NCBI RefSeq assembly: GCF_029962835.1
Contig: NC_080582.1
Span: 23,320,032-23,384,031 of the forward strand
Direction of reading: 5' to 3'
From: Magnolia sinica
Taxonomy: Eukaryota > Streptophyta > Magnoliopsida > Magnoliales > Magnoliaceae
DNA: 64,000 nt
The notes beneath the pieces were generated by a model. It saw nothing but the letters and a program-made list of their open reading frames with translations, was not told the DNA's origin and searched no databases. Shown one piece after another: positions 971-21,565 of this stretch. The position numbers and the translations under genes were made by a program. The stretch's first letter is position 1. Every line of letters starts with the position of its first letter.

Positions 971-1039
971 CACTACAAGAAAGTGGGGCATATCCGGGGC
1001 GTTTTTAGCGGCGGCCATCACCAACTACTAGATCTCAGT

Positions 1040-1300
1040 TGACTTTAAAAAAAAAAAAAAAAAAAAACCCTATCTCTCTGTCTCTCTTTACCTCTCACTG
1101 TCTCTCTCTCCCTCTCCGTCTCCATCCCCACCATCTCGTCTCTCCCTCTCCTATCCTTGATCTCTCTCCCTTATACTATCTCGATCTCTCTCCCTCTCCT
1201 GTCCTCGATCTCTCTCCCTTATACTATCTCGATCTCTCTCCCTCTCCTATCCTCGATCTCTCTCCCTTCCTCTCCCTCCCTCTCTCTCGATCTCTCTTTC
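1040..1300. repeat. Poly-A run and 48-bp CT-rich minisatellite
   Basis: After a run of about 21 A (about 1048-1069) the sequence becomes almost pure pyrimidine. A 48-bp unit starting ccctctcct recurs at 1144, 1192 and 1240 with few differences. Open frames here (for example 1039-1518) are low-complexity Ser/Leu/Pro translations and I do not regard them as genes. It could be a captured 5' leader, since CT-rich leaders are common in plant genes. Confidence 0.75.
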
Positions 1301-2497
1301 CCTTGTTTTCTTCGACGTGGTGTTCCTTCTTCTATCTCTCTCCAACAATTGAAGAAAGTATAAGAAAGAAGAGAAAATCAAAGGTACTCTCTCTCGATCT
1401 CTCTCCCTTCATCTCTGTCAAACTCACTTCCTATTTTGATTATCAAAATTTGGGCAGCAGCCATCGCAACGGTAGCCATATCCGCCGTTGTCCATGGCTG
1501 TTAACATCTGCATGTTAGTTGTTTGAAGAAATGCTTCAACCAATAATGTGTACCGCTATTGTACATTTAATATCTCTATTTCTTTCATACTTTTTTGGCC
1601 CATCCATGAGTGGACTAGCCTGATATTTGGGAGGGGAATAATCAACATAGATCCACCTTATGAGAGGCAGTGATCCCACACATATACCACTTTAGACCAT
1701 GTATTAAAATGGAATTTCTCACTCCATTTTTAGTGTATGATTGATTTTGTTAGTTTTTTAGGGCAACTCAATTCTAAGGGAAGGATTTGTTATGGATAAA
1801 GAGCCGTTTAGAAGGAGAAATTTCACTTTCCATTCCTTTCCTCACTTGTGAAACTCGCCGAATTGACAGTTGCTGAAAAACTCAAACTGAGTTAATAAGA
1901 ATTGAAACCTTGCACTCTGTTGCAGGGAAGAACTTAAACTAACCATTGATTAGTTTGATGACATTATTTATATTTTATATTACTTATCTAAGCAATATTA
2001 AATATTTAATAATCCTAATGTAATTATTAAATATTGAGTCAGGTTGAGTCTTTAAGTCAACACGAACCTTCTTAACATGGTGTTGAGTTTTCCAACCCTC
2101 AATCCTGCGATGAATCAGTGGCTCTCATGGCAGATGACTAGTTTTATCTTCACAACATTCATGCGAATGCATGTCTGATTAGGTTAGCTGTGGAGCAGAG
2201 AACATGCCGAATAATGCCTAGCCCCACTGATTCAATTGAAAATGACATAGTTTGCCTATTGATTCTTAATACCTATTAGAACTAATTTCCTCCTAATTTT
2301 AATTAAGAAGGCCATTTTTGTAACCAAATGGATGACATTGATTCGGACCTACTATTGGTAAATGAAGGATGAGAAGCTCATCTCGGAAGAATTCGAAGAG
2401 ATCTTGTTTGCATACATGCCTAGGGATAAGAATCGGTATGTTAATAATGCATTGGGGCAGGCAGTTTTTGGGTACGGATTTGGAGGTAAGAGATGCT
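1301..2497. other. Left arm of outer CACTA, no recognised gene
   Basis: This is AT-rich filler between the outer and inner CACTA left ends. A short frame at 2362-2544 contains FAYMPRDKNRY, which faintly resembles the linker after RNase H in some gypsy polyproteins, but the match is too short to call. Nothing else was recognised. Confidence 0.4.
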
Positions 2498-2625
2498 CAC
2501 TACCAAAAAATTGGGCAAAGGATGCAGCCTATGGCGGATTTTAGCTACAGTTTAAAGCTGTAGCTATATAGCTATGAGTTTAATCCGTAGCTAAATTCCA
2601 TTTAACCGTAGCTAAATCGATTAAA
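2498..2625. repeat. Left TIR and subterminal repeats of inner CACTA
   Basis: CACTACCAAAAAA at 2498 is followed by several tagctacag, tccgtagcta and ccgtagcta words up to about 2613. The same words occur near 13500-13680, 17080-17140 and 37850-38065, which marks a family-specific subterminal motif. Confidence 0.7.
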
Positions 2626-2741
2626 AAAAAAAAGCCACGCAGGTCCTTTCTATTTCATTAACGCATGTATATTTTTTCATTCCCTCTCAAACATCCCTCT
2701 CACGCCTCCACCTCACCCCCGTGCCCTAGCCACACCTCCAC

Positions 2742-2765
2742 CTCTCTCTCTCTCTCTCTCTCTCT
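2742..2765 (+). promoter_or_regulatory. (CT)n tract in thioredoxin 5' leader
   Basis: About twelve CT dinucleotides lie 115-138 bp upstream of the thioredoxin ATG in an otherwise pyrimidine-rich leader. CT tracts in this position are common around plant transcription starts and 5' UTRs. No clear TATA box was seen between the CACTA subterminal repeats and the tract, so promoter assignment is inference. Confidence 0.4.
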
Positions 2766-2879
2766 GATTTTTCCAAAATTTCTCCTTTCAAGTGCCCTCT
2801 CTCTCCCACATCCTTCCATATCAGTGGCAATCCTGTAATTCTTTGCATCTCCGAGCCCAATCTTTCGTCTTCCTTTCCC

Positions 2880-3434
2880 ATGGCTGTTGTCCTCGAATCG
2901 CTTCTCGTTCCCCGCGTTTCGGCTCACTGTGCATCTCCTTCGTCGCCGGTGGACTCCGCCATCTCGGTCGCCCGCCAGAAGACGGCAGGTCTGTTGCCGG
3001 AGTTCAGGGGGTTGAAGATCCAGATGCATGCACCCCGGATTACATTAGCATCGAGCAGGAGGGGCCAGAGGATCGCTCATCGTTCGATCATCTGCGAGAT
3101 GCAGGAGACAGCCGTCGATGTGCCTGCTGTAACTGATGCCACATGGCAGTCGCTTGTCCTTGGGGCTGACCTTCCTATGCTTGTCGAGTTCTGGGCTCCA
3201 TGGTGTGGTCCCTGCCGCATGATCCATCCCATAATAGATGAATTGTCAAGGGACTATGCTGGGAAGCTGAAATGCTTCAAGGTGAACACTGATGAGAGCC
3301 CATCAATTGCAACCCAATACGGAATCCACAGCATCCCGACTGTCATCATCTTCAAAAATGGCGAGAAGAAAGATGCAATCATTGGCACAGTCCCCAAAAC
3401 TACACTAACTGCGAGCATCGATAAATTCTTGTAG
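2880..3434 (+). CDS. TRXM: Thioredoxin m-type, chloroplast precursor
   Basis: An intact 184-residue frame. Residues 1 to about 74 are rich in Ser, Ala and Arg with few acidic residues, fitting a plastid transit peptide. The mature domain follows, with active site WCGPC at 108-112 and the cis-proline in SIPT (Pro153), and ends in TASIDKFL, as in m-type thioredoxins. The enzyme reduces disulfides of stromal targets using electrons from ferredoxin-thioredoxin reductase. The start at 2880 is the first ATG of the frame and gives a normal precursor length. No intron interrupts it, unlike the neighbouring captured fragments. It begins only about 250 bp inside the subterminal repeats of the inner CACTA, so it is either a captured or retrocopied gene carried by the transposon, or a resident gene that the transposon ends happen to bracket. 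All residues needed for activity are present. Confidence 0.9.
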   Translation: MAVVLESLLVPRVSAHCASPSSPVDSAISVARQKTAGLLPEFRGLKIQMHAPRITLASSRRGQRIAHRSIICEMQETAVDVPAVTDATWQSLVLGADLPMLVEFWAPWCGPCRMIHPIIDELSRDYAGKLKCFKVNTDESPSIATQYGIHSIPTVIIFKNGEKKDAIIGTVPKTTLTASIDKFL

Positions 3435-3557
3435 AGGTAAGTAAGCATCTATGCAAGAAATAGTAGTGTTCATTCTCTTTAAGGATATTAAATGTTGTGA
3501 GTTTAGACTCTGCCACCACGATCTTTCTATATGCTTTGATGTATATATAGACACAAA
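3435..3557 (+). other. Thioredoxin 3' untranslated region
   Basis: AT-rich sequence directly after the TAG stop, interrupted at 3558 by a MITE. A gtaagt donor-like word lies at 3437, just after the stop. I saw no convincing poly-A signal before the MITE. Confidence 0.4.
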
Positions 3558-4765
3558 GGGCCTGTTTGGATGCCTGTAAGTTCTTTTAAGTTGTAAGTGA
3601 CTTACCTGTAAGTAACTTACAGGTGAAAGTTACTTATAGGTAACCTGTTTGGATGTAAGTTGTAAGTCACTTACTGGTAAGTTACTTTTTCTGTTTGGAT
3701 AACCTGTAAGTTACTTATAGGTAGAAAGCTGTATATTCACATCGAGCATATCTTAGATTGGGGAATCATTCTAAAATGTTATAATCATATAAAAAAACAT
3801 GGAATCAAATATGTTATTTTGTTAAGCCCATCAAGATGAATATTTGAGATAATTATTAAGCTAAAACAATCATCAAGTGGGCTATAAAAGTGGGCCCACG
3901 AATTCAAAAAATCTATAATATGGAGTAATAACTCAATTTAAGCATTGAGAATAAATTTAAAAACATTAATAGAAAATCTAGTAATTAAATTACTTGCATT
4001 CCAACTTTGCAATCTGATGTAATTTCCAAGGGCCAGCGCATCATCATTCCCACTCTATCATCAAAGTTTTTCTCATTCTCTAATGAGGAGTTTGATGCTC
4101 AGGATCTAAGAGATTCACAAACACTGATGTAGATCGTTAAATTACTTGCATTCTAACTGTGCAATCTAAGAGATTCACCAACACTGTGAGTACATCACAG
4201 GATCACCAACCACAGGCTACAGTGAGACCAACCAGATAAACGATCTACGGGATCACCAACCACAGGCCACAGTCCTTGACGGTTTCATGGGATGCTGCAT
4301 CACATAGTCCGTTCGGATTAGAGGCCCATGACACGTGTGAAAAAATACGCATGTGCGTATAAGTGACTGTTTGGATGCCAGCGTGCCTTATAGAGTAACG
4401 TCAAACCACTCCCATTTTCAAAGGAGAAAAAAAGGATAGATGAAACCCTACCGTTTTAGGAGGAGAAGAGACGGAAGGCAGTAACTGCAGCGAGATATTG
4501 CAGAGATGGAGAGAGATTTGGTGGGTTGGTGCATTTCTCCCTCTTCCCCTCTTTTTAAAAATCTAACCATTGAGCCTGTAAGTGACTTACAGGGAAGTGA
4601 CTTCCCACCCCCATCCCCCTGCAGTTTTTTGGTAGATTTGCCTGTAAGTGACTTATAGGTTGTAAGTTACTTACAAGTGATTTTTCTCCCCCAAACACCA
4701 CCTGTAAGTGACTTCCCTGTAAGTAACTTCCCACTTACCCAACTTACGGGCATCCAAACAGGCCC
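3558..4765. mobile_element. Tourist/PIF-like element, 1.2 kb
   Basis: The ends are GGGCCTGTTTGGATGCC and its reverse complement GGCATCCAAACAGGCCC, flanked by aaa on both sides (3555-3557, 4766-4768). The GGGCCTGTTTGG terminus is typical of PIF/Harbinger-Tourist elements, whose 3-bp duplications are usually TWA; here it is AAA. The ends are studded with cctgtaagtgacttacagg palindromic words. The middle has short duplications (ggatcaccaaccacaggc at about 4200 and 4250). No transposase. Confidence 0.7.
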
Positions 4766-5640
4766 AAAGGCTACAATTTTGATCTTGTGGGTCTGGTGCT
4801 CTCTTGTATCTTTGTTACTTTTGAAGTTTCCTTACTATAAAGATGTCCTTTGCAGTTTTTTTTTTTTTTAAGTTGCCCTCTCTCGTTCCCATTTCTTTTC
4901 CCCTTTTCTCTCCTTCTAAATTTCTAAATCATCCCCTTTTCTTATTCTAGGGCTAGGATTTTTATTTTCCATTTCTGATCTTTTCTCCCCCTCTCTTCTA
5001 CGCAAGAGGGAAAGCATCGGTGTTTGACAATGATTCCATCAATGGGGGTGATTCGAGTGTCAGCAGCAAGTTTGTAGAGGTAAGTAACTACATTGTGTTG
5101 TGGTTATTGTAATCGTATATCAATCATCCCTATTGTGGCTGCTACTTGGGTTTGGTCAACCCGAAAATTGATTGACCTGAATCAAGTTTAGGACAGGTGT
5201 CAAGGCCCTTGGCTCACATTCAAGTTAGAAAACACAGACCCAATTTGAAATCAGGTTTGTTTCAAGAATAATCATGTGTATTTGGGTCGAGTTGGTTCAA
5301 TATAGAGGATTTTTCATTAGCTTCAACCCCCGTGACCACAATCTTCGTCCGCAGCCACTGCCCCTGTAATCCATTGTTGCAACCTCTGTACTTCACCAGC
5401 GCAGCCACCTCCACCAATCAGCACCAACATTTGCCATATCACCTTGTGGTTTGAAGGTTAGTAGTTTCTTTTTTATTTTCCAGAGACACCATTTTATAAT
5501 TTATTGCTCTACACATATTGAGTTCTGTATAATTTTTGTTTATGCATAATTTCCTTAAGAAGTGTTCTAAAACTAGGGAGATGGTTTCTCAAGTGGACCA
5601 TGATCTTGAATCTTGATGGAGAATGGACTATTGCTACAAA
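4766..5640. other. CACTA interior with one possible exon
   Basis: Mostly AT- or CT-rich. Around 4995-5080 an open stretch (SVFDNDSINGGDSSVSSKFVE) ends in a good splice donor (ag|gtaagt at 5080), so it may be an exon of another captured gene, but I do not recognise it. The rest shows nothing. Confidence 0.3.
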
Positions 5641-5790
5641 AAAACTTACCAATATGGCTTTAATGGTAACACTAGGAAGTGTTAGCTCTCTTTTGGCTAC
5701 TGGAAGGTAGCCATATTTTCAGATGCTCTAAAACATGCATCAATCATTGATGGTATTCATCTTACTAAGCGGCAACAGGAAGCTGGCTTT
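5641..5790 (+). pseudogene. BIOF: Captured BIOF (KAPA synthase) fragment, part 1
   Basis: Translations NMALMVTLGSVSSLLATGR and, in a shifted frame, DALKHASIIDGIHLTKRQQ correspond to consecutive parts of 8-amino-7-oxononanoate synthase (KAPA synthase). This PLP enzyme joins pimeloyl thioester and alanine in biotin synthesis. The frame changes near 5707-5712, so the copy is not translatable as it stands. The transit peptide, N-terminal part and PLP lysine are absent. Plus strand, same direction as the thioredoxin gene. Confidence 0.75.
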
Positions 5791-6061
5791 TCAATCATTG
5801 ACATTTTCTTAGTTGAATGTGGACTGTTACTACACTTGTTTTCTTAATTGTCTTCATAGGTGACCAGTGGAATTGTACTGTAAGGGAGATTTTGAGCCAT
5901 GGTCCATCCACTGGGCCATATGGTCTGGATGACCAAAACATGGGTTGCATTTGTACGAAGCACCTGAGGATGGTATGGAAGTTCCTAGCTCATAAAATAC
6001 ATCTTTGAAGGGGTATATTGTATTTTTGTTACATAAGCAACTATGGTTTATCTTATTTTGT

Positions 6062-6151
6062 AGCTTGTTTAGTATGGATGGAGATTTTACACCTGTAATT
6101 GAACTTGTGGAGCTTCGGAAGAAGCATGGATTTTTATTGGTCATTGATGAT
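6062..6151 (+). pseudogene. BIOF: Captured BIOF fragment, part 2 (exon)
   Basis: Reads SLFSMDGDFTPVIELVELRK then KHGFLLVIDD, a conserved stretch of KAPA synthase and related alpha-oxoamine synthases; the VIDD aspartate contacts the PLP ring. It ends exactly at a splice donor (gatgat|gtaagt), so an original exon border has been kept. The spacing from part 1 (about 275 bp) is taken up by an intron-like region. Confidence 0.8.
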
Positions 6152-6249
6152 GTAAGTATGGCTTCTAATTCCAATTAGAGTTGCATGATTGTGTCATACA
6201 AAACAGTGATTGATTTGATGCACTGGCATTTACTTGGAGTTTCTTCCGG

Positions 6250-6381
6250 CCCTTGGGACACTTATTTGTGGCAAGCATGGTGGTGGAGTGGCAAAGCAGT
6301 TTGATTGTGAGAATGATGTGGATATATGCATCAGAACTTTGAGCGAGCTACAGGTTGCCACGATGGTTTCATTAGATGCAG
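6250..6381 (+). pseudogene. BIOF: Captured BIOF fragment, part 3 (exon)
   Basis: GTLICGKHGGGVAKQFDCEN and DVDICIRTLSELQ match the segment that follows VIDDAHGT in KAPA synthase, but downstream residues deviate from the family around the lysine-proximal region. The exon ends in cag|gtaatc at 6382. The acceptor side is degraded (no AG exactly at the expected border). With parts 1 and 2 this gives about one third of the enzyme in the correct order with introns between, so it was captured as genomic DNA. Confidence 0.75.
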
Positions 6382-6734
6382 GTAATCCAATCTGTGTTTC
6401 CATAGAAAATATGATTGCCAGATGGAGTGATTTTTGTTTTAAATGTTTTTTTATGTCCGAATTATGTTGTTTATGCTTTTTAGTGTTCATAATAAGAAGC
6501 AGCCTCAAATAGTAGTTATGCTTCATTGAAGTCAAATTTGAAATAATGTGGTAGCAATTTGTAGCTCAATTCCTCAATACGAATGCCAAGAAAGTTACTT
6601 GCAATTTGGTTATCACTTTATTCAACAAATTATTTCAATTCATTTTAATATGCATCCAATAGCACATTACGTAGGATTTGTAATATCTGAAAAGATGCCT
6701 ATTAACTGTTTATGTCTCTTTTGACCTCTTTCAG

Positions 6735-6794
6735 ATTTCATGCATGCTAACTGTTTGATGAAATGGCTCAAGGTCTTTTGCCTGGGAAATGAAG
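6735..6794 (+). other. Exon-like segment, unidentified
   Basis: A 60-bp segment bordered by tttcag and gtgagt. One frame reads LFDEMAQGLLPGK after a stop. It is probably an exon of a captured gene, but I cannot name it. A second candidate border pair lies at about 6953-7016, ending ctg|gtatgt, with the in-frame phrase EQMVEIKTLKAL. Confidence 0.3.
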
Positions 6795-7185
6795 GTGAGT
6801 ACATAGTAATTTAGCCTTCTTCTTTTTTCTTATCGCCTTTTATTTTGTTGCAAACTCCAAAATACGTATGATAATCTTATTTCTCTACTTCGTAACTTAT
6901 ATCTTCAGAGACATGCAATATTTATTTATTTTTCATTGCTGGTAGATGAGTGAACACAAGAGCATCGAATACGTGTGTTGAACAAATGGTAGAGATCAAG
7001 ACTCTTAAAGCACTGGTATGTTCATGATCTGGGACAATCTTCATTCTGTATTTAGCTCCTGCTTATCATCTAATTTCACTGTCATCTATCTTTACATTTT
7101 CCTTGGAATTAGATGGAGCTACAGATCTTTCAAGAATACTTTTAGGGATTACTATCTCTAAATGAGAAGGTATTTATAACTGTAG

Positions 7186-7278
7186 GAAATGAAATTTGCA
7201 AATTGAAAACCTGCAGAAGCAAAAGCAGGAGCTCCAAATCTTTTTGGATATGTATGGACAAAATTGCTTTGAAAAGAG
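7186..7278 (+). pseudogene. HUB2: Captured HUB/BRE1 exon A
   Basis: Between acceptor tgtag (7181-7185) and donor gag|gtatgc (7279), one frame reads LQKQKQELQIFLDMYGQNCF. This is a coiled-coil segment of plant BRE1-like E3 ligases (HUB1/HUB2), which monoubiquitinate histone H2B during transcription. The family assignment rests on my memory of the family; paralogue HUB2 over HUB1 is a guess. The frame runs on into exon B if the intron 7279-7518 is removed. Confidence 0.7.
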
Positions 7279-7518
7279 GTATGCTATGAATTTGTGAAAA
7301 TTTCAGCCTCTGCACTTCTGTTATTGTCTGAATTGGCAAATTAAGAAGGAATAGGAGTGTAAACTTTCAGAATTTAAAATCTGATAAGTTCATTGGACTG
7401 AAATTGCATTTTTCTTTGCACCTCTTTTTGCATGATTGGTTTCATTATAGATATGTTTTTAAGTTGTACAATTTTCCTGATATTGTGTATGGTTATATAA
7501 TGCATTCTAATGTTATAG

Positions 7519-7734
7519 GCTTTCTACTATGAATACCAGAGATGTGATAGAAATCAAGGAATCAGAACGTAGAGCTCAGGTGCAAGCTAAAATCTTGAAA
7601 AGTGCTTTGGATGAACACAGTCTAGAGTTGCGAGTGAAGGCTGCGAATGAGGCTGAGGCAGCTTGCCAACAAAGGCTTTCTGTCGCTGAAGCTGAAATTG
7701 TTGATTTAAGGGCAAAATTAGATGCTTCTGAGAG
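7519..7734 (+). pseudogene. HUB2: Captured HUB/BRE1 exon B
   Basis: Between gttatag and agag|gttagc the frame is fully open for 72 codons. It reads TRDVIEIKESERRAQVQAK, then SALDEHSLELRVKAANEAEA and LSVAEAEIVDLRAKLDASER, a heptad-rich coiled coil characteristic of HUB/BRE1. The C-terminal RING finger and the rest of the protein are not present: about 150 bp downstream the gypsy element (7885) begins. It is open and correctly bordered, so it could be an exon in a chimeric transcript. Confidence 0.8.
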
Positions 7735-7884
7735 GTTAGCTTTGTATATGTATTTACTTAGTACTTCTATGTGTATATGGAGATTACTTTTACATCATTT
7801 CATAAGTAGGTTATATGGAATATGTGAAATAAGGTAAATTTACTGTTATGTGTAATTATTTTTGACTTTTTACAATAGAGTCTT

Positions 7885-10800
7885 TGATGCAGGACATGAA
7901 ATTTAAGTATGAGATGCAAGAACTCAGGCTTAGATCATACCAATTCGGAAATAATTACACAAATTCCACATCCCACATGACAGTCCAAATCATTCAATTA
8001 AAAGGGGAACCTATGCGGGTCCAGGCCGACACAGGCTAGAACTGGACCAATAAAAATTATAAACCAAACGATGTCAAAGGGAAATAGAAATCAACCACAC
8101 ATGCATAAAAATCAGTCCCTAATCCAAGGGATTCCCCAATTTCAATTCAAGGAACCCTAGGGTGATGAAAACGACAAACAAATTAGGGAAAACGCAATCT
8201 AGGTTTAGGGTTTATGAATAAAACATGTATAAGGAGGCAAAAGAGGATAAAAACGTAAACCAAAGACGATTCCCGCGTGTGGACATCGGGCCTAGGGCAC
8301 TCGCACGTGCGCAGGTGTTTGGCGGTACGTGCAAGGGGGCGTTGGTTTCAAGAAAGCCCTCCTTGACACTGGTCAGCTAGGGGTAGGCTCCAAAACCCCC
8401 TAAGTTTCAGGTCAATCCAAGCGGCGGCTTGTGCGTAGTACTCCGTCGAAGTTTCTAACCTCCTATAGGGCCGAAATCTGGAAATTTGTTGTAATGAAGA
8501 AAACTGATGCTACAAAGGACGAATTCGAAATGCAACTAGATCCTTCACATTGAATGTGGAACTAATTCCCATGGAGGGTGGAAGATTTACCGCATACACA
8601 TTGAGACCGTTTCATTTTATAATTTTGAAGGGTTTAGCGCTACGCGCGCTTAACTTACGAACGGTCCCCAAAAGATACCGCTCGGGCATGATGCGGACCA
8701 TCACAGAGTCCCTTACATCGAATTCGTTAAAACATTTATATTAGTCTGCAGAAAATTTGTAATGTTCATTACTAGTAGTGATCTTCTACCTGAATTCTTG
8801 ATGCCATGAATGAATGTTATGCGCAAAAGACTCTGTAGACTCTAACGGCCTATGGAACAATGACATAGGGATAAGATCAATAGGTTTCTCAGGTTTATAA
8901 CCAGTAACGATTTCATAAGGATTGAGACCAGTGGACCTATCAATAGAACTATTAAACGCAAACTCGGTTGTAAGTATTACGGTGTTCTAATTAAACGCAA
9001 ACTCGGCTGTAAGTATTACGGTGTTCTAAGTTCTTGTGTGCTCTATATCCCTCCTAGGGGGAGACTCATCCGGTAGATCATCAGGAAAGAAATCACGAAA
9101 CTCATCCACTACTAAAATGGCCTCAATGGGTAACTCTACACTAGCCTTTGGTGTACTCTATCTAGCCACGAGGCCACACATGTTGTACCCCTCAAAATAA
9201 TGGTCTTGATGTCCCTTATGGGGTGGGAGTATGGGTGCACGCCCATGACTAATTCCTTGGCCACCTCTATTCATTAGTCAATCCTCCTGACCACCTGCCT
9301 GAGATTGGCTATCTTCCCTAATGGTGGGGTTTGTCCTGAGGGAGGCCTCTATTTGGTGAAGGCGTTGATCTATGCTTTGTTCCAAGCACTTACCCTACGA
9401 CTCAATTTATTGGGACAACTTGTTTAGTGACTCTAGCAGTTGTTCCATGTTTAGTGTAGGATGCTAGCCAAAACCATGACCCGTACGTGTGAGCGTACAA
9501 CTTGCTAACTCCACTTAAGGACTTTCTACGATGACTATATGTGACTAAATGATCCTATGAGACTCTATATGAGGGAAACTACGCAGTGCTACTAAAATCC
9601 AGCAATATAGTTGTCAAATTAAAGGAATAACAGAGAGTTACAGCAATGTAAATTGCTAACTTCATGCTAACAAAAATTTCAACAACTAATATCAGGGACT
9701 ATGGACTCCTAAAAGCTACATGTGATGGACTAGATACATGAAGGACTTAAACAAACTAACCCTAAACAAGTAATGTATTCCCCTATAAGAACCCTAAGCT
9801 TTGATACCAAATTTGATGCAGGACATGAAATTTAAGTATGAGATGCAAGAATTTAGGCTTAGATCATACCAATTCAGAAACAGTTACCCAAATTCCACAT
9901 CCCACATGACAGTCTAAATCATTCAATTAAAAGGGGAATCTATGCGGGTCTAGGCCGACACAGTATAGAACTGGACCAATAAAAATTATAAACCAAATGA
10001 TGTCAAAGGGAAATAGAAATCAACAACACATGCATAAAAATCAGTCCATAATCCAAAGGATTCCCCAATTTCAATTCAAGGAACCCCAAGGTAATGAAAA
10101 CGGCAAACAAATTAGGAAAAACGCAATCTAAGTTTAGGGTTTATGAATAAAACATGTATGAAGAGGCAAAAGAGGATAAAAACCTGAACCAAAGACGATT
10201 CCCGCGTGTGGATAGCGGGCATGGGGCACTCGCACATACGCAGGTGCCTGGTCGCACGTGTGAGGCACCTGCGAGGGGGCGTCGATTTCAAGAAAGCCCT
10301 CCTTGACACTGGTCGGCTGGGGGTAGGCTCTAAAACCTCGAAGTTTCGAGTCAATCCGAAGGGCCGCTTGTGCGTAGTACTCCGTCGAAGTTTCTGACCT
10401 CCCGCAGGGCCAAAATCTGAAAATCTGCTGTAATGAAGAAAATTGATGCAACAAAAGACGAATTTGAAACACGGATGGTGGTAGAAGATGGAAAAAAAAG
10501 AGATGATGAAAGATGGGGTGAATTGGGATAGATGTGGCTTCGCACCACGGTAGTTAGCCCTTCGAAAAGGGAGGGCTTCGCATCCACTTTTGAATTCTTC
10601 CACAACTCACAAAGAGAGAAGAAAAATAAAGCAGAAATTTTTATTAAATTTGAATGAATGAAAAGAACTACAAGGGGTACCTTTTTATAGGGAAAACCAT
10701 ATACCCCAAAAACTCACACCATGTGCGCAACCTATTACTTGGCGATGAAGTAAACTAAAATAAAAACCAAACAAAGAAATCTAAAGCATTCACGATGTTC

Positions 10801-11045
10801 AAAATAATAACAATAAGCAAAACCTAAAATAAGAAATCAATCCGACGAGTGGGCCACGATCATGAGATCCCATGATGGGCTTTTCTTGACTATCGGGCTC
10901 ACCTTTTGAACCAAACTTCGTCTTCTAGCTAGAAGGCCCTCCATGGATTTCGTCATTAAGCCAAATCGATGGGGCCCTCCTTCTGCGTACATACGTGCGT
11001 AGGGGGGGTGGTGTGTGTACAAGTGTACACGTGATGTCCCCATTA
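7885..11045 (-). mobile_element. Reduced Ty3/gypsy element with TSD gtctt
   Basis: Flanked by gtctt at 7880-7884 and 11046-11050. The right LTR (9814-11045, 1232 bp; its 5' LTR) starts TGATGCAGGACAT on the plus strand and ends near ATGTCCCCATTA. A shorter left LTR spans 7885 to about 8525. Just inside the right LTR is a primer-binding site complementary to initiator Met tRNA (9798-9809). Minus-strand remnants of gag, the start of reverse transcriptase and the end of integrase lie between. It is broken and far shorter inside than a complete gypsy. The two LTRs differ at about 13 of the first 215 positions (around 6%), so the insertion is probably a few million years old. Confidence 0.9.
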
Positions 11046-11050
11046 GTCTT

Positions 11051-12018
11051 GATCTTATCAGATACTATAGAACTATCATCATTCTTTATGACCACATCAT
11101 CACTACACTAAGCTGATTTTCCCTGAGATTTTTATATTAATTCTTCAACAATATTGCATCCAAATGGGCCGTTACCAATTAATTCCTGTGCTTGTAGCTT
11201 AAATTGCATGGTTTTACAGAAAACAATTTGTTTATTTTTGCGCTGATGAATATGCAGCAGATAATGTCTTCACTCTTTTGAGAATACATGTTTGGGTGAT
11301 TTCTGTTCGTCTTAAATCAGATTGCACGTGTCCTTTGCTAGGTAGAACCATAACATAAGCTCCCTGTCCATTTTGGGGATTAGGAGCTGTTGTTATTCTT
11401 TCCCTAAACTATTCTAATGCATAAAATTTTGAATCAGGCAGATTCAGTTTGAACTTACTGAATAACGATGAGAACAAATAATTTTCATTAATCATACCTC
11501 TATAATGTAAAGTGTATCAAACCCATATGTGACCACTCTGAATGCAGGATTGCCTTTTCAATTAATGAGTTTCTTGAGACAAGTAAACGACAGGTGATTA
11601 TCGTTGCATGTTCTTTGAGGAACGAAAATCTGACATTGGATTTTGCATACAGGATGACATGCTCGTTGAGATTGTAATAACCATTAGCACGCTTTTTTGT
11701 TCTTCTTTTTTGCCGGGAATGGCAGTGGTTGCTCTTTTAAGGCATTTTGGATGCCCTTGCTGGTAAGGTTGGAAGCTTACATTGATTAAATGCTTTTTTT
11801 TTTTCATGAGGATTTGCTATTCATTTTGAAAAGCAGGATATATTTCTGACATGTCTTCCTTCAACCATTTTATTTTTATTTTTATTTTTATTTTTATTTT
11901 TTAAGCTGGGAACTTGCTTCAACATTGAATACACGTAAATCTCTCATGCATTTGATTTTCATTGGATTTTGGTACATGACAGGCAATTCAAATAAGTTGA
12001 ACTTGATCCATGGTGCAG
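11051..12018. other. CACTA interior, intron-like AT-rich DNA
   Basis: AT-rich spacer right of the gypsy element, with a (tttttatttt)n tract at about 11869-11900. No gene was recognised before the RLP4 exon at 12019. Short open frames lack any recognisable motif. Confidence 0.4.
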
Positions 12019-12105
12019 GGATCTTAATGGAAACTCTCTATCTGGAAGAGTCCCTGCGAAACTCAAGAGGACGGCCTCTCCATAGAGCTAGCTTCAAGCA
12101 AGCTG
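12019..12105 (+). pseudogene. RLP4: Captured RLP4-like LRR exon
   Basis: After acceptor tgcag (12014-12018) the frame reads RDLNGNSLSGRVPAKL, a leucine-rich repeat, and then GRPLHRASF in another frame. The phrase order matches the last LRR and the following segment of receptor-like protein 4, a malectin-plus-LRR membrane protein. One frameshift separates the two phrases. Confidence 0.65.
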
Positions 12106-12669
12106 TCATTTATAAGGATGATTACTAACTTATGAGGCCGTATTTATGTTTCCTTTCAATTAGTGAAAATATAATGCCTGTGAAAATATAATGCCTGAGG
12201 TAGTCCATGACAATTGATAACTACTATTTAAGAGTCAGACTAGTGTTATTAGTTTGGCATCACTTTCAAAATGGTGGTGACTCATCCATTGGGCATGTGG
12301 CATCCTTGTAAGTCCATAATGACTAAGTCATCATGCCATTGTGGACGGAGCATAGAGGCCGAAAGTCACACTGATCAGAAGATCATAGCCATCCAATGAT
12401 CAATGGCTCAAGTGAGTTGTTCAAACGATGATGGTTAAGATTGTCAAATACGCTTATTCTCAACCTTATACTCCATCCATGATCATGGTGGGTTGTGACA
12501 GTTTGACGATCGGGTTTCAGTAGCATATTTTCCATGTGTACACTGGATGTGAGTCAGCATCATTTTGATACTGATGAACTATTTTTGTAGTGTAGCCTAA
12601 TTTTTAATAGCTTATGTTGTGTATTATTAAAATCACTGTTTGACATGTATAGTTTTACCAACAATGCAG

Positions 12670-12771
12670 GCATTGCGTTGGGGGCATTTATAGCACTTGC
12701 ACTTATTTTCATTTGTTCCATATGCTGGTGGAAAAGATGGCAGAATATTCTTCGAGCTCAGAAGCTTGTTG
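12670..12771 (+). pseudogene. RLP4: Captured RLP4-like transmembrane exon
   Basis: Bordered by tgcag and gttg|gtatgt, the exon reads IALGAFIALALIFICSICWW and then KRWQNILRAQKLV: a hydrophobic membrane helix followed by a basic stop-transfer stretch. This is the expected C-terminal membrane anchor of RLP4-type proteins, which lack a kinase domain. Both splice borders look usable. Confidence 0.75.
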
Positions 12772-12870
12772 GTATGTCATGCATGTGCATATGGATGTGT
12801 CCATGAATGGAGTTTGTATTCTTTCTTTTATGATGATGATGTGGCACGTTGTCATTCTTTTTGCATCAAG

Positions 12871-12988
12871 AGATGCTCTGTATGCAAAAGCGAGGACTCA
12901 CTTCATGCGTGACGTGCAAATGACCAGGCCCTGCATTCAGGACCAAGCTCGAGTGGTTGCTGAGATAGGGCCCCGCTTACTCTCTTAG
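12871..12988 (+). pseudogene. RLP4: Captured RLP4-like last exon with native stop
   Basis: Reads YAKARTHFMRDVQMTR and ends VVAEIGPRLLS before a TAG at 12986-12988, resembling the short cytoplasmic tail and terminus of RLP4. It lies about 100 bp after the membrane exon, as expected for a small intron, although the acceptor before 12871 is weak (tcaag). Sequence after the stop may be captured 3' UTR. Confidence 0.75.
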
Positions 12989-13489
12989 CTGAACTGCCAT
13001 TTGCTTTTGGTTCCATCCATGTCAATCCCTATTCCATTCGTTTACAACCCGTCGATTGAGGTTTTGCAAGTCACATTCCACTAGTTCTGTCTCTATGCAG
13101 AGCTTCCTCTTTTGACGGGAAAATAGTTCTGAAAATCCCCCTGGCAGAATTGATTTCTTCCTCTATCATGTATGTCATTCTCATGTAGTTTTTGTGGTTG
13201 TAAGGTGTAGATCAGGAGTTAATGTATATTCTGCATTCTTTCAGGGATTCCTTAGAACATCATGTTTTCATGTGTGCTAGGAACTAAAGCCTTCTTGCCT
13301 CTTTGTAAGTACAATGGAAATCACCACAAGGGTGTCTGCACACGATTTGATTGCTATTTGTAATATGAATGCATTGTTTTCTTTCCTGATTCATTTTATG
13401 TACTATTCCTAGCAGCATTAACTGCATTAGCTTAGATGAGTTGATCAATCACAATAGGTACTTGCAATGGTAACAGACACCATTATTAT
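12989..13489. other. Possible captured RLP4 3' UTR and spacer
   Basis: Non-coding, T-rich, with no repeats. Its position directly after the RLP4 stop suggests a captured 3' UTR; no motif proves it. Confidence 0.35.
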
Positions 13490-13499
13490 AATATTTTTT

Positions 13500-13748
13500 T
13501 AAATAGAAATCAGCTACGGATATTATCCGTAACTATTGTTTTAGAAAACCGTAGCTAATACTAACTTCAGCAATGTGCTACAGATTTCATTCTACTTTTA
13601 GCTACAAATATTATCTGTAGCTGTATGTACATGGTACCTATTGCTACGGATTTAATTCGTAGCCATAGCTTTTTAACCGTTAGTTGCACCACCGATTGTT
13701 ATGGCCATGCTATGGACTCCCTAGCCTTTACCCCTTTTTCTGGTAGTG
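13500..13748. repeat. Right subterminal repeats and TIR of inner CACTA
   Basis: Contains at least six copies of gctacgga / tccgtagc-like words in both orientations and ends ctttttctggtagtg at 13748. It mirrors the left end at 2498. Confidence 0.7.
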
Positions 13749-13974
13749 GCCGCTTATTTGCATATGGGGCTAGATGATTCAAGGATATGCATTGTTCTCA
13801 ACCTTGATCTGTACAAGTGGAATGGGCAATGCCCCAAAAGTCTCATCGCACGAGAATCGTACAACCCCTAGACCTGTGATGTCAGGTGACTTGTCAATTG
13901 TCATTTATATTCTACAGAACTAAAACTAAATTATGTCAGGAGAGGTTAGTTCCAATGCCTCACCCACTGCTCTC

Positions 13975-14093
13975 TTTTCTTTTCTTTTTTTCTTTTTTTA
14001 ACCACACACCACAGTGTATACTTGAACCCATGACCTTAGCGTTGAAACTCTAGTGAGTCTACCACTAAGCCATGAGTAGAGACCCTTATTTCC
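13975..14093 (-). mobile_element. tRNA-derived SINE
   Basis: Read on the minus strand from about 14093, the sequence has an A-box-like tggcttagtggtaga (plus 14058-14072) and a B-box-like gggttcaagtata (plus 14017-14029). It then ends in an A-rich tail (T-rich on plus, 13975-13999). This order is that of a Pol III-transcribed tRNA-like SINE head plus tail. A related split copy is at 29117-29690. Confidence 0.65.
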
Positions 14094-14851
14094 CTTGTTT
14101 GCTCCTCATCCCTTGCATAAGGATTCTAACACAATTTTCCAATCAATGGTGTATAACTCTTCGAAGAGTGGGACTTTTCTTTTTAGCTTTCAGATGCTAA
14201 GGTAACCCATGTATGTCCTAATTTTTCTTCTTGGTTTGTTCTATTAAAAAGCAGCATGTTTTTGGTAAATAGAACATATAATACCTAAGTCTACAACTGC
14301 TTTTATAAGCTCCTCAACTTTTACTTCCTCTGTTTTTGCATAGGTCTCTAAATGACATGCCATGGTTAGTTGAACCTAGAAAAATCTTGGTCAGTTAGAT
14401 TAAGCATGACACTGATAGAACTAGATGAAATTGATGTTTACAGGAGGTTCAACATTGGCTGATCTTCAACAGGCTCTTAAAGTTACTTGCCACTTCTGTT
14501 GGGATTAATAAAAAATGGAGTCCCAGAATGTAGGCCATCAAAAGGCACTGTGCAAAGCTTGAACGTGTAGGATCTACGCAGTTGGCTAGTTTGCTTATAT
14601 TTGCAGGGCTAATGATCATGCTCTTTGTCAAGCTTTAATAACTTGAAAATTCACATAAAACTGATTGTTCATTGCATATGCATATTATCAGTTGATGGTT
14701 GACATACAATTGTTATTTGGAATACATGGTATTTCAATGAATTGGGGGTGAAGCAAAGGCCTTTTTTGTTGTAGTGACAGATCACACTGTCCACTAAAGT
14801 TGCTCTTCACAACGATATATACTGAATTGTCGCTTCTTACTGTTTTTATAG
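14094..14851. other. CACTA interior, no recognised gene
   Basis: AT-rich. The stretch 14445-14630 has a few open codons (for example SVGINKKWSPRM) but no recognisable domain; it may be another gene fragment or an intron. Confidence 0.3.
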
Positions 14852-15008
14852 GGAATATGCCCCTTCAATCATCTTCATGGATGAGATCGACAGTATTGGA
14901 TCTGCTCATATGGAATCGGGGACTGGCTATGGTGATAGTGAAGTTCAGCGTACTATGCTTGAGCTTCTCAATCAACTTGATGGATTTAGAGATCCAACAA
15001 GATCAAAA
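14852..15008 (+). pseudogene. RPT6: Captured RPT6 exon 1 (26S proteasome ATPase)
   Basis: After acceptor tttttatag the frame reads [20 protein letters not shown] and then [27 protein letters not shown] is the Walker B motif of AAA ATPases, and the surrounding residues identify RPT6, a subunit of the ATPase ring that unfolds substrates at the 26S proteasome. Walker A, upstream, is not present. The 3' border is blurred because the expected donor is missing. Confidence 0.85.
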
Positions 15009-15104
15009 TATTTATATTTATTTTTTTCTTGTGAATTACTTGAAACCATCAAAGTTCTATTTTATCTCTATATCATAGTCATACAGAATTTATCTTCTAT
15101 CCAG

Positions 15105-15203
15105 GTTTTGATGGCTACCAACTGTATAAATATTCTGGATCAAGCCCTCCTCAGGCCTGACTAGATTGATTGGAAGATTTAATTCCCAAATCCCAACGAA
15201 GAG
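15105..15203 (+). pseudogene. RPT6: Captured RPT6 exon 2
   Basis: Between atccag and gaag ag|gtataag it reads [19 protein letters not shown] and then FPNPNEE. The family has RPGRIDRKIEFPNPNEE here, so this copy has an in-frame stop (TAG at 15162-15164) and altered arginine-finger region. Non-functional as an ATPase. Confidence 0.85.
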
Positions 15204-15381
15204 GTATAAGCTACATTTTAGTTCTTCCCAGGAACATGAAGCTTAATAGTTGAATCTTCTATCATCATTTGGATCTCTCCTAATAATTCCACCAATGCCA
15301 GCTTTAATTTCGCTAGCTACTGTGTGAAATTCTGCTCAATACATATGACGTCCTGATCTCATTTGTTTGATTGTTTTTCAG

Positions 15382-15497
15382 TCCTGCTTCAATATCTTGA
15401 AAATAAACTCGAGGAAGATGGACTTGATGCGTGGGATTGATCTGAAGAAGATCACAGAGAAGATGAATGGTGCATCTGGTGCAGAACTTAATCAGAT
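15382..15497 (+). pseudogene. RPT6: Captured RPT6 exon 3
   Basis: After acceptor tttttcag it reads [20 protein letters not shown] and [16 protein letters not shown], the AAA lid region of RPT6. The order and spacing of the three exons are collinear with the real gene, showing genomic capture with introns. Confidence 0.85.
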
Positions 15498-15779
15498 GGG
15501 CCACACACTTAAATCAATTGGCATCTTATGATCAGAGCAAAGGTACAATTGAGGCACACCTGGTGAATGGATTGATTTAATTTTCATCCAAGGGGAACTT
15601 CATGATGGGCCTCACCTTTTGCATGGCTTAGATGTTCTCCACACGCCCCATGTTGGTAATGTTACTTGTGCCTTTCAAGAAATTCTAAGGTCTGCATTTC
15701 TTTATGTTGATAATGTTACTCATGCCTTTCAATGAGCATTCATCTACTATTACGTATCTAATATTTTTCATTTTTTCAG

Positions 15780-15927
15780 TGGTGAATTTGTTGCTGTGAA
15801 CAAACACCTTCATGATTTAACTGAGATGGGTCTTTGGTCTCCTGCTCTCAAGAACAAGATAATTTATGATGATGGGTCTGTTCTTAAGATTCCAGAAATC
15901 CCAGATGATCTTAAAGCTATATACAAG
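15780..15927 (+). pseudogene. RNR1: Captured RNR1 exon (ribonucleotide reductase large subunit)
   Basis: After acceptor tttttcag the frame reads SGEFVAVNKHLHDLTEMGLW then SPALKNKIIYDDGSVLKIP and EIPDDLKAIYK, a conserved part of the R1 subunit that makes deoxyribonucleotides. It is open over its whole length, then meets TAG where the family continues. It lies only about 280 bp after the RPT6 fragment on the same strand, so the two are artificial neighbours. The rest of the 800-residue protein is absent. Confidence 0.85.
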
Positions 15928-17040
15928 TAGGGATATACTATTCCACATATGATGATCGCCTAAAATTGGCAGGTGTCCATTCTATCATGTCCATGTTATC
16001 AATAATAATAAACACATGGGGCCGTCTGTCCCGCTGGAAATTTAATTTCCATTAGATGGGTTAGGTGTTTTGTGCTTGTGACCTCTTGCTGTTCGGATGG
16101 CGACCCGTTTTATAAAGTCCAAAAGCTGATAACCCACAACCCATGAAATAAAATAATCCATTTGTCTTCACGAAAAGGACTGAGGTGTGAGAAAACTGAA
16201 GCTCAGATCCAGCATCATCATTCTTCTCCTTGTAGCCCACCCAAATTCTTCAACATTTCATGGTTTGAAACTCTTATTATTATTATCTTTTTAATCTTCT
16301 CCTTTTATTGTGTTTAGTTGTACCAAAAATAATTAAATTTCTTGATATCTAGTGCAACCAAATGCACCTTTTATTGCTTTTTATATTTGTCTACCAAGCT
16401 AAAATGCTTCAAATTGAATGGAATCACCTTATGAAGGGCATGCTACTACCACTGCCTAAGAGGGCACATTAATTCCATCTAACCAGCAGGATCCACACAA
16501 ACAGAGAGCAGACAGTATCTCAAATATACAGCTGCTAGCACAGCATGGTTGAGTCAAATGATCCAGCAACTGAAGTACATAAGCCTCAGATGAACTAGCT
16601 CTTACTACCAACATCACCCAGCCAACTAGTACAGAAGATAGACTCTGTTGCAAGTTCTCTTATCAGTATTATTTCTACCTTTTAAGTTCTGAACATGAAG
16701 AACATCTTTGTTGTTATTTACTGCAATGTTATTTATTTATTTATTTTATATTTGTGGATCTTTTTTTGACTGGATTAAGTGGGCCTGGGTTGTATTATTA
16801 GAGTGGTTCTTTCACCTGTAACATTGTAAATAAGGTGGTGTAGAGAGATCTTTCTACACTTTTTCTTTTGCTTTAACACACTAGGTTCTTGTAGTTCATC
16901 TGATGAAAACTAAGTATTGCTTACAATTATTCTATACAAAAAAAGATTTTGAATTAAGTTCTTTTGTGCTTTATACATTTATATTTGTACACATTACTGA
17001 TTTACCTGCATTCTTTTCTTTTTTTTTCCCAGTGGTGAAC
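15928..17040. other. CACTA right arm spacer
   Basis: AT-rich non-coding DNA with no recognised gene. A (ttat)n stretch occurs at 16727-16750. Confidence 0.4.
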
Positions 17041-17069
17041 GTGGGCAGGAAAAACTAAAACAGCAAAAA

Positions 17070-17318
17070 TTACAATAGCTATGGATTATCGATAACCATT
17101 GGTTCTATAGCTACGGATTTTATTTGTAGCCTTTTATTGTTTTCAGCCATCGCAATAAATAACTGACGATATAGGGTCATCCTGCAAAACCGCCGGTAAA
17201 AGCTGATGGCCGTTGGTGAAACCTTTACCGATGGAGCCTTTACCGGCAGTTGCCTGACCGCCAGTAAAACTTTTACCGGCAGTTTTGACCGCCGGGAAAG
17301 GCCAACTTTGTTGTAGTG
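17070..17318. repeat. Right subterminal zone and TIR of outer CACTA
   Basis: Contains the tagctacgga-type word (about 17099-17130) shared with the inner unit, then five accgccggtaaa / ttaccggc words (17189-17300) specific to the outer element, ending ttgttgtagtg at 17318. Confidence 0.7.
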
Positions 17319-17321
17319 TTA

Positions 17322-18829
17322 GTAAGCATGTCTGTCGAATTCACACTCATGTGAATCTTCTTAAGAGTGATGGCCTTCCTCAAGCAATTGTCAGATAAAA
17401 TGATGACAAATATTAATATGTTTAGTTTTATAATAGTAAATCAAACTTTTTACCAAATTGATCACGCTTTTACTGTCATAATTAACCGGCATGGCCTCCT
17501 GCTGAAGCCCGAGTTCATTTATCATTCCATGCAACCAAACACCTTCCCTAAATACCTCTGTCACTATCATATACTCAACTTTTGTTATGGAAAAAGAAAC
17601 AATAGACTGAAGGTTCGACATCTAATTGATTGCTCCACCTGCTAATACAAATGAGCAACTAGAAGTTAACCTTCTTTTATTCACATTCCCTACGTCATAT
17701 AAATCCACATAGCCTACTAACTTTCCCGCTGATTTCTAAAATGTCAAGATGTAGTCCATTTGTACCTTGTAGATAACGAAGTAGCCATTTCCTTGCCTCA
17801 TAACCTTACTTGTTAAGGTTTGACATGTATCTGATCACAACACCAATTACATATGAAATATTCGGTTTTATAAAGTCTATGGCACATATTTAACTGTCAA
17901 CCGCACTTAAATAGGCCACAGATGACATAACCTACTTTTTTCTTCATCTATAAAGGGACATCGCTTCGAAAAAAGCCTAAAGTGAGAGGCATGGGTGTGT
18001 TAACTGGTTTAGCTTTGTTCATCCTAAACTTTACCAATACCTTCTCAAAGTACTCCGCCCGAGATAATTGGAACATTCTCCTCTCCCTATCTTTGTCTAT
18101 GTCTATGCCGAGAATCCTCTTTACAGCCCCTAGATCTTTTATTTTGAATGTCCCTGATAATTGAGTCTTTATTATGTTGATTTCGGATATGCTTTTATTG
18201 ACGAAAAGAATATCATCAACGTACAATACCGACAAAATGAATCCTCCATCAGTTAATGTCTTAAAGTAGACACAATGATCATATTCACTCCTACTAAATC
18301 GTTGACTCATCATGAAAGTATCAAACTTCTTATACCACTGCCCAATAAATGTTTCAAGACGTACAACGACCTTTTCAACCTACAAACCTTATTATCTAAA
18401 CCCTTTTCTTTGAAGCCCTCTGGCTGCTTCATGTAAATCTGCTATTTCAACCCCCATGTACGAAAGCATTCTTTACATCCATCTATTCCAATCAAAGGTT
18501 GTATTGGGCAACTAACGCTAACACAAGCATGATAGATACATGCTTGACAACAGGTATGAAAATCTCATTGAAGTCGACGCATTCTTTCTGAGCATACCCC
18601 TTCACAACCAATCTTGTCCTGTATTTGTCCTATTTTTTCCTATAAATCCACTTGGACCGATTGCTTTACGCCCAACAAGAAGCTCCACCAACTCCCACAT
18701 CTCATTCTTGCATAAAGAGTTTATCTCGTCTTTCATTGCTATCATCCACTTCTCGGTATACAGGTCATTCAATGCTTTCTGGAAGGTAGATGGATCCCCC
18801 TCATTCATAATGAGGGCGAATGCAATATT
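17322..18829 (-). mobile_element. Ty1/copia fossil, RNase H and reverse transcriptase part
   Basis: Minus-strand translations at 17391-17621 resemble copia RNase H; 17948-18313 resembles reverse transcriptase including VLYVDDILF and LGIDID; 18602-18808 resembles the start of the RT region. It is broken by many interruptions and is old. It belongs with 21566-23728 and 771-970; the CACTA (right edge 17318) and the hAT (left edge 18830) were inserted into it. Confidence 0.85.
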
Positions 18830-21565
18830 TAGGGGTGTACGTCAAGTCGAATCAAGTCGAGCTGGCCTAAGCTCGACTCGGCTCGGCCACTAGCTGACCA
18901 CAGCTCAAACTTGGCTCAGCTCGATCCTTGAGCCTGACTATCCAGCTCAGGTCGGTTCGATCAGCAGCTCGGGCCAGTTCAAGCCGAGTTCGAGCCAAGA
19001 TTGAGCTAAGTTCTCCATTACAGCATTTTCACAAACACATGCACTGCACCTTCAAAATCTCACTGTATTTGAGATGGCAGCAATGGTTTTACAGGTATTT
19101 TATCAAACACCTTCTAAGCAACATAAAAATTATGAAAAAAAAGGGTGTTGGTTTCATATACATACCTTCCTTGCCACCAGCTATTGAGGGTCGAATATTA
19201 CATATCAGACCCCAGTTATTGCCAGGATTTACAAACATAGTACTGTTTATCGGCCTGATTTAATCATGTTTGTGATGCAGGGCGTATTCACGAGCCTGGA
19301 CTAGGAAAGGGTACTAAAAGCATAGATTTAATGGTCTGAAGTCACCAAGGCAAGAGACGGACCCTAGGAGACCAAGATTGGTGGAATTACACACCAGGGA
19401 TCCGAGGAAATAAAGCCGTTCACGTCAAAGAGGCCCGAAACTGGCGCAGAACGCAAGATCACAGGGTCCTCGCCATCCGATTGGCGTGAAAATTTATACA
19501 TGGTTCAAGGACCAAAAACTAACCGTACACGTCAAATTTCAGCCAGTGGATCCCTCCGAAAGTGGCCCAATGGACAGATCAGCCCATAAATCAGTGATTT
19601 GGGGCCCACCTGATATTTGGATACGCTTCAAATTTGGTCTCAACCCCTTAAATTAGGTGTCAAAACGGATGGACGAAGCGGATTTCTCGTATACATCACG
19701 AGGGGACCCCGCGTGCAGTGTAAGCACACCAACAGTGAGGCACCAGCTGTGCACTGGGCTCCTATTCAAATTAGGAGATATCCCTCCCATATCCACAGCC
19801 GCGCACAGCAACCCTGTTTCGCAGCCGCATATAGCAGACGCACAACGTCTGTTTGATGGACGTTGTGGGCCGTCACTGTCATCCGTTCAGATGATCCAGA
19901 CCATCTAATGTGATTAGGGGCCACATTTGAGCGGACCCTAGGTGATCGTTCGTGGACATCTATAAGTGAATATACGTCTTTCTCAGTAGAAAACCCCGGC
20001 GTTGATGGACAGGGCCTGTTTGCAAGATGGTGGGACCTCACGGATGATGCAGATCGTCCATCAAGTTATAGGATCTGTAGGGAATGGGCCACGCATGGAG
20101 AAGGTTGGAAAGAAAAAGAAAACGGAAAGTAATTTCGTAGGAAATCCCGGAATCAATGGGATTTCCCGTTGCGCACGTGAACAGGCAGCCTCGCCATTGC
20201 GACTTGATGTGGCCCACCCCTGCGATCGAACTGGGTAATCCAATCCGTCTATCACATTCATAGGACAGGTTCGGCCCCAACCTAACTGGTTTCGCATCTA
20301 GAAGATACTTCATGTGCACGTAAATTAGTCTGCAATCAGATCCGCGGCACTGTTGCTGTGAAAATTCTCCACCGCCTCTGGCTTTGGCCACTAACGCATC
20401 TCCACCGCCTTCCCTGCATTGTCTATAAGAAAGAAAGAGAGGGAACGTGAGGAGGGGGGAGAAGCGAGAGAAAACAGAAGAAAAGAAGAAAAAGCCGTGG
20501 AGCACGCTGGAGGAGGGAGATTGACTGGACGTGGAGCAAGGAGAGAGATAGAGAGGAAAAGGTTTTTTTTTCCTTTTTGTTTAAGGTTAGTCACATCATG
20601 ACGGGCTAAACCTCTTAGCTAAGGCTAAGAGGTGAAGCTTGTAGTGAGATGGGAGACCCTATTTGTTGATTTAATTATTTAATTGTGAATTGAGCTTGAT
20701 TGTGGTTTAATTATTAAGGGATGTTTGTAGTTTTTAATGGTCTATTGTAACTGAAATTACAATGGGTCTGTGATAGCTTTGAGCATGTTCCTTTTCTTTT
20801 ATGTTTATGACGTCAGGAAGCTCTATTGTTCACCATCATCTCATGGGCATGGTCGGATGACGGTACCCTTCCTAACTTTTATGCACTATTGATTGGTTGA
20901 TAATTAGTTTAATCCTGTTGTTTGCTTTGTCTCCTGGGCATGGTTAGATGATGGAATCCATTCTAATTCATATACCTTTCATCTCTTGAAAACCAGATCA
21001 AGTAAGTTCAGCTTAAATTCAATAATTCTTGATGCAAGCATAAGATCTCCCAGATCTCTACAAGTGGATCCTCTGAATCCCTAGTTTCCTTCCTCTGAAT
21101 TCCTTAAGTTTTCGATAATTATTCCACAATTATTCATTAAATTCCATTTGATTTAGATTACGTCTTAGTCCAATTCTAGTTCTACTTAGTTTCAGATAAC
21201 GCACAGGTATCAGTCCTCTGGGATTCGACCTCGGTCTTACCGAGTTTATTACTACTTCACAACCCTATACTTGGGGAGTGAACACCAGCCACACTTCTTG
21301 GAGTCATTTCATCAAATACTTGGTGAGCAACATCAATATCAAAGTAACTGAGTCACCAAATTAGTTAGATTCGAGTTTGATTCGAGCTAGGTTCGATCCG
21401 AGTCAAGTCGAGCTGGGGCCAACTCGAACTTGGTTCGAACTCATTTTTGAGCTCAAAAAATCAGCTCGACTCGGTTCGAACTCAGCTTTGAACCGAGTCA
21501 AATCAAGCTTTTTTTAGTTGAGTCAAGCGAGCTAACCAAGCTAGCTTGGTTCGTGTACACTTTTA
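18830..21565. mobile_element. hAT-type element, 2.7 kb, with 8-bp TSD
   Basis: Starts TAGGGGTGTACG and ends CGTGTACACTTTTA, flanked by gcaatatt on both sides (18822-18829 and 21566-21573); the 8-bp duplication is diagnostic for hAT. The subterminal zones (18840-19015 and 21370-21540) are dense in agctcgactcg / cgagtcgagct words. Much of its length is an inserted gypsy LTR (19182-21284). No transposase. A shorter relative in opposite orientation is at 45871-46543. Confidence 0.9.
19182..21284. mobile_element. Solo LTR of a Ty3/gypsy element, 2.1 kb
   Basis: Bounded by ccagc on both sides (19177-19181 and 21285-21289). It starts TATTGAGGGTCG and ends GAGTGAACA, an LTR-like TGTT...AACA pair with one change. 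The shorter hAT copy at 45871 lacks this segment at the matching place, confirming it as an insertion. It contains no coding sequence. Solo LTRs form by recombination between the two LTRs of one element. Orientation is not certain. Confidence 0.75.

Follow-up and report, generated by a model that had tools for sequence, protein, structure and literature searches.

We analyzed a 64,000-nucleotide stretch of Magnolia sinica DNA (GCF_029962835.1, NC_080582.1:23,320,032-23,384,031, forward strand), here called the window, by reading positions 1-22000 directly and scanning for CACTA ends. Positions 971-17318 hold a CACTA transposon of 16,348 bp, the outer element, in which a second, probable CACTA of 11,251 bp, the inner element, is nested at 2498-13748. 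Pieces read as thioredoxin m (TRX m), a BIOF-family gene, HUB, and RLP4 are cargo of the inner element, and the outer element itself carries pieces of RPT6 and RNR1 outside the inner one. With a probability of roughly 70%, we read the locus as a CACTA without detectable transposase in a likely copia gene, with a probable CACTA inside it and host pieces likely gained by the skipping of transposon ends. An earlier note on this DNA had described the six pieces, at 2498-15927, as the cargo of one transposon.

The window contains 61 CACTA and 53 TAGTG sites, which form 1778 convergent pairs at distances above 100 bases; 31 of these pairs have an exact 3-bp match between their flanks. The pair 971/17318 is flanked by an exact target-site duplication (TSD), TTA at 968-970 and 17319-17321, and its ends, CACTACAAGAAAG and CACTACAACAAAG, form terminal inverted repeats that agree at 16 of the 23 positions beyond CACTA, compared with only 9 for the runner-up among the 31. 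Random pairs of 23-mers from the window reached at least 16 identities in 4 of 200,000 cases and 15 in 22 of 200,000. The pair with the highest identity overall, 18888/46420 (18/23), does not have matching flanks, and neither do 16879/41220 (15/23) and 971/13748 (14/23). Motifs resembling CCGGCGGT cluster at 17189-17299 and occur once in the 5′ arm of the outer element; their window total of 27 was matched by 19 of 100 shuffles.

The flanks of the outer element point to the same limits. To its right, at 17319-18900 (right limit approximate), lies a copia retrotransposon pol on the minus strand with a reverse transcriptase domain (RVT_2, 2e-21), and a short remainder of the interrupted gene is read left of 971. 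Excising 971-17318 together with one TTA restores a minus-strand frame that is open over the join (...LKKIHMSVNSTDML|TKVVPILKF). Taken together, the open frame over the joined flanks and the TTA duplication identify 971-17318 as the unit that moved, and it is this unit that inserted. We conclude that it likely sits in a copia retrotransposon gene.

For the CACTA at 2498, the best partner is the end at 13748, which agrees with it at 16 of 23 positions beyond CACTA (terminal inverted repeats present). A 21-mer search located subterminal palindromes in both arms of the inner element, at 2542-2614 on the 5′ side (TAGCTACGG type) and at 13511-13665 on the 3′ side, and the two arms share GCTACGGATTTAATCCGTAGC-type palindromes (2544 and 2571; 13513, 13601, and 13643). 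Allowing up to 3 mismatches, the palindrome 21-mer produced 14 match rows in the window, compared with a mean of 0.00 in 100 shuffles. Ten of the 14 rows fall in the arms of the inner element or in the 3′ arm of the outer element at 17110, where a motif search placed subterminal motifs of the inner-element type on the plus strand at 17076-17130. Judging by these ends and arms, 2498-13748 is a probable second CACTA nested in the outer element. The remaining four rows are two near-perfect palindromes (GCTACGG...CCGTAGC), each matched on both strands, at 37848-37868 and 38047-38067; they lie about 200 bp apart and are possibly a short relative of the inner element.

The inner element contains a complete TRX m reading frame on the plus strand at 2880-3434, encoding 184 amino acids with a start, a stop, and the WCGPC motif. 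It matched Thioredoxin in Pfam (1.6e-27), and its top PDB match was chloroplast thioredoxin M (7.1e-49). The observed/expected CpG ratio was 0.79 in this frame and 0.00-0.43 in the other gene pieces, which could reflect a first exon rich in GC or a more recent capture. In a neutral simulation with substitutions calibrated on long terminal repeats (LTRs) and with indels, which assumes that TRX m was present before the Ty3-type (gypsy) piece described below landed, a frame of this length stayed intact in 374 of 5000 runs, rising to 1282 of 5000 at half the age and 2453 of 5000 at a quarter. Under this model the intact frame is suggestive of selection, though not significant. A thioredoxin m frame left complete within a transposon of this type can mislead gene annotation, or else it represents a mobile copy of the gene.

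Three further pieces lie on the plus strand of the inner element. The BIOF-family fragment, at approximately 5651-6381, consists of several exons and is frameshifted; its joined pieces best matched 8-amino-7-oxononanoate synthase in PDB (9.6e-13) and BioF/Kbl in NCBIfam (1.3e-17, below the model's curated cut-off). Two exons of the region taken alone best matched serine palmitoyltransferase (4.9e-8), and Pfam had no match for the pieces, so the family is secure and the exact member less so. The open exon at 7511-7735 is read as a HUB/BRE1 coiled coil, and the fragment at approximately 12023-12780 as the leucine-rich repeat end and transmembrane segment of RLP4. These two identities, on which our reading and the earlier note agree, are putative and were confirmed by no tool: the exon had no match above chance in PDB, NCBIfam, or Pfam, and the fragment had no match in NCBIfam and none above chance in Pfam.

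Outside the inner element, an RPT6 fragment on the plus strand (14852-15492) comprises exons at about 14852-15007, 15105-15203, and 15382-15492 with introns between them and, in the second exon, two in-frame stops, all judged by eye. It matched AAA in Pfam (6.6e-10) and residues 237-359 of 404 in PDB chain 8amz_J (1.1e-49), which is listed as an AAA domain-containing protein and which we take to be spinach RPT6; the rows that follow it are 26S proteasome subunit 8. One plus-strand exon of RNR1 lies at 15778-15927, with AG before it and GT at its end by eye, and 50 amino acids matched (PDB 1.5e-12; Pfam 1.9e-4, slightly short of the curated cut-off). Because the RPT6 exons keep the introns between them, capture took place at the DNA level, and in this gene the earlier note's proposal to that effect, drawn from intron borders, holds. 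Its description of the genes as truncated suits RPT6 (123 of 404 residues) and RNR1 (one exon) but not TRX m, whose 184 codons run from start to stop. An ordinary gene cluster was considered and rejected on the truncation of RPT6 and RNR1 and the two stops in RPT6, a rejection that does not extend to TRX m considered by itself.

Just before the RPT6 fragment, 14755-14776 resembles a third CACTA 3′ end. This relic shares CACTACAACAAA, a 12-mer found at two places only in the window, with the end at 17318, and the two ends agree at 15 of 23 positions (86% over 22 nt). The first RPT6 exon begins 76 bases after the relic end.

No transposase family was found in the outer element when all six frames of 971-17600 were scanned with Pfam (E up to 1; as the halves 971-9372 and 9201-17602), a search that strongly decayed relics may escape. 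With CACTA ends, a TSD, no detectable transposase, and host coding DNA inside, the outer element is a Pack-CACTA. Directly outside the 5′ end of the inner element, 2362-2485 is open and exon-like, with a strong donor (GGAGGTAAGAG) at its end; it is possibly a further captured piece of the outer element, and it had no PDB relative (best E 0.64). Rfam gave no match at gathering scores in the window.

Capture of several loci by Pack-CACTAs is in print, and a model proposed in PMC8903248 and PMC13317346 has two neighboring Pack elements moving as one from their outermost ends, together with the intervening DNA, when the internal ends are deleted or mutated. The anatomy observed here, with outer ends at 971 and 17318 and inner ends at 2498, 13748, and 14776, fits this neighboring-insertion model. 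Host DNA between neighboring CACTA insertions would have been enclosed once the pair was mobilized by its outermost ends. The relic end at 14776 would then mark an earlier element sited in an RPT6 intron, and use of the end at 17318 would have made the RPT6 and RNR1 DNA beyond 14776 internal. That the relic lies directly before the captured RPT6 exon fits the use of an outer end in place of an inner one. The same process may have supplied the inner element with its cargo: TRX m, BIOF, and the putative HUB and RLP4 pieces. With an internal end preserved directly ahead of a captured exon, and with the outer insertion site still legible in a copia-like gene, the skipped-end model directly predicts a match between 14777-14851 and an RPT6 intron.

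Several points weigh against this reading. The 15/23 agreement of the relic end is not rare by itself (5 of 6441 pairs of CACTA sites reach at least 15), and no 5′ partner of the relic was identified. The inner element has no exact TSD, its flanks GCT and GCC being alike at 2 of 3 positions, and for this reason we call it a probable CACTA and not a proven one. HUB and RLP4 likely make two further host genes beyond the four recognized, but neither is confirmed. At the insertion site, the restored open stretch is just 48 codons long, and the copia frame directly upstream does not continue into it, which means assuming a frameshift. The open segment presumably represents the RNase H end of copia, an assignment for which a motif match was not found in the literature, and a self-search of the window gave no second copy of the tail for comparison. 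Finally, the insertion into an RPT6 intron is a prediction from this window.

All six segments lie on the plus strand, as the earlier note reported; four of them (TRX m, the BIOF family, RPT6, and RNR1) are supported by tools, and the names of the other two are putative. A shared strand has a chance of 1 in 32 for six independent pieces, the figure given in that note, and of 1 in 8 if the tool-supported four are counted alone, so that calling the orientation striking gave it more weight than the figure carries. A single strand could have been kept by selection or directional capture, in which sense exons joined to a 5′ promoter would be spliced to yield chimeric transcripts, and pieces in antisense would disappear or undergo silencing. 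In agreement with this, no host domain was found on the minus strand. Pfam, searched over the frame halves of 971-17602 at E up to 1, returned two minus-strand rows, one an SH3 domain of a retrotransposon and the other a sub-threshold row (0.029) that we dismissed; four sub-threshold plus-strand rows, in families besides AAA and RNR, were likewise dismissed. The frame-wise PDB search covered minus frames alone, and in the three of 2498-17317 it gave 0 matches at E up to 0.01, having also missed the retrotransposon piece.

Splice-like sites lean the same way. In the element outside the Ty3-type piece, donor-like sites numbered 9 on plus and 4 on minus and acceptor-like sites 7 and 4, whereas in the rest of the window the corresponding counts were 18 and 18 for donor-like sites and 16 and 12 for acceptor-like ones. 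This lean is weak and the excess small, and at a stricter donor threshold there was 1 site on each strand and hence no excess. Fragments in the soybean element Tgm-Express1 are spliced as exons (PMC1947982, in the text available), which also speaks for selection of sense cargo; the chance figures, on the other side, were chosen post hoc. We therefore regard the uniform orientation as weak evidence for selection or directional capture, and an origin of this kind as unlikely. It is most simply explained by chance, perhaps aided by local insertions that share an orientation. Such sharing was seen in 12 of 15 local pairs of hAT and 12 of 13 of PIF, counted for whole elements and not cargo, in the accessible part of PMC8903248, which also cites Arabidopsis, where local Pack-CACTA insertions have a conserved orientation.

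The pieces might also be ordinary degenerate duplicates of host genes in a transposon-rich gap, with the CACTAs inserted around them. The missing exact TSD of the inner element leaves room for this. Nevertheless, the flanks of the outer element read as one copia gene, and everything within 971-17318 must then have arrived in that unit or been inserted into it later; unrelated loci would, moreover, have to become adjacent by other means. We consider this origin quite improbable. Still more doubtful is a stronger version of our own reading, in which the nested pair would act as a one-way exon collector, repeatedly capturing host DNA in sense by bypassing internal ends, with TRX m as a still expressible mobile gene under selection.

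A single CACTA from 2498 to about 15927 that captured all six genes, as the earlier note had it, can practically be set aside. It is true that 2498 is a CACTA end and that all six segments fall within those coordinates, but the best partner of 2498 is 13748, its top partners do not include the TAGTG sites closest to 15927 (14940 and 16354), and it is the pair 971/17318 that has the exact TSD. The Pack-CACTA label of that note holds for the outer element, but two nested elements had been merged and the outer ends missed. Helitrons have neither terminal inverted repeats nor a TSD, and the present unit is bounded by both, its TSD being 3 bp long. Although Helitrons often hold several gene fragments (PMC3288121, as far as its available text goes), Helitron-type capture is a very remote prospect here, with no Rep or helicase domain in the Pfam frames of 971-17600, a result obtained without a search for Helitron termini.

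Compared with known systems, the element is a rich example of the already known Pack-CACTA kind, with an informative anatomy. It shares with the Pack-CACTA and Pack-TYPE elements described in the available parts of PMC8903248 and PMC13317346 its CACTA ends, a 3-bp TSD (for the outer element), the absence of transposase, and coding DNA from several loci; in those sources, larger elements hold more loci, and capture is proposed to occur between neighboring insertions, as here. It differs in having two nested CACTAs, a visible relic of an internal end, and one complete cargo frame. Tgm-Express1 is likewise a CACTA with five unrelated gene fragments that retain introns, and its exons are spliced into host-gene transcripts (PMC1947982, portions available). 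The available text is silent on orientation; its fragments presumably share a strand. That element, however, measures 5.7 kb and lies in a gene intron, whereas the present one measures 16.3 kb, lies in a retrotransposon, and carries different genes. Chenopodium CACTAs also captured host gene fragments but keep transposase-side domains and hold one or few fragments (PMC8978399, in part). Stepwise capture by maize Helitrons likewise yields several fragments, with different ends and a different transposition mechanism (PMC3288121, in part). A search of titles and abstracts, with full texts outside its reach, found no paper naming this gene set and none joining gene capture by CACTA transposons with thioredoxin. 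Host-gene pickup by CACTAs has so far been inferred from few cases.

Two later insertions lie within the inner element. Downstream of TRX m, 3558-4765 is an unclassified element with terminal inverted repeats (GGGCCTGTTTGGATGCC), whose 25-nt arms are 96% complementary and whose flank duplication is AAA or CAAAG. At about 7885-11045, on the minus strand, lies a truncated Ty3-type LTR retrotransposon with a Tf2-1-like SH3 domain (Pfam 1.1e-11) and, by eye, GTCTT flanks at 7880-7884 and 11046-11050. Its LTR-like repeats are identical at 589 of 646 positions (Kimura two-parameter distance 0.095), and the DNA of the inner element around it predates its landing. A related copy of this retrotransposon piece (71%) was observed at 53718-54856. 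The copia that hosts the outer element shows RVT_2 and SH3_retrovirus on the minus strand within 17319-22000 and appears to be split in turn by another insertion at roughly 19000-21550. The CACTA-like site at 18888 adjoins a GTCGAGCT-type repeat.

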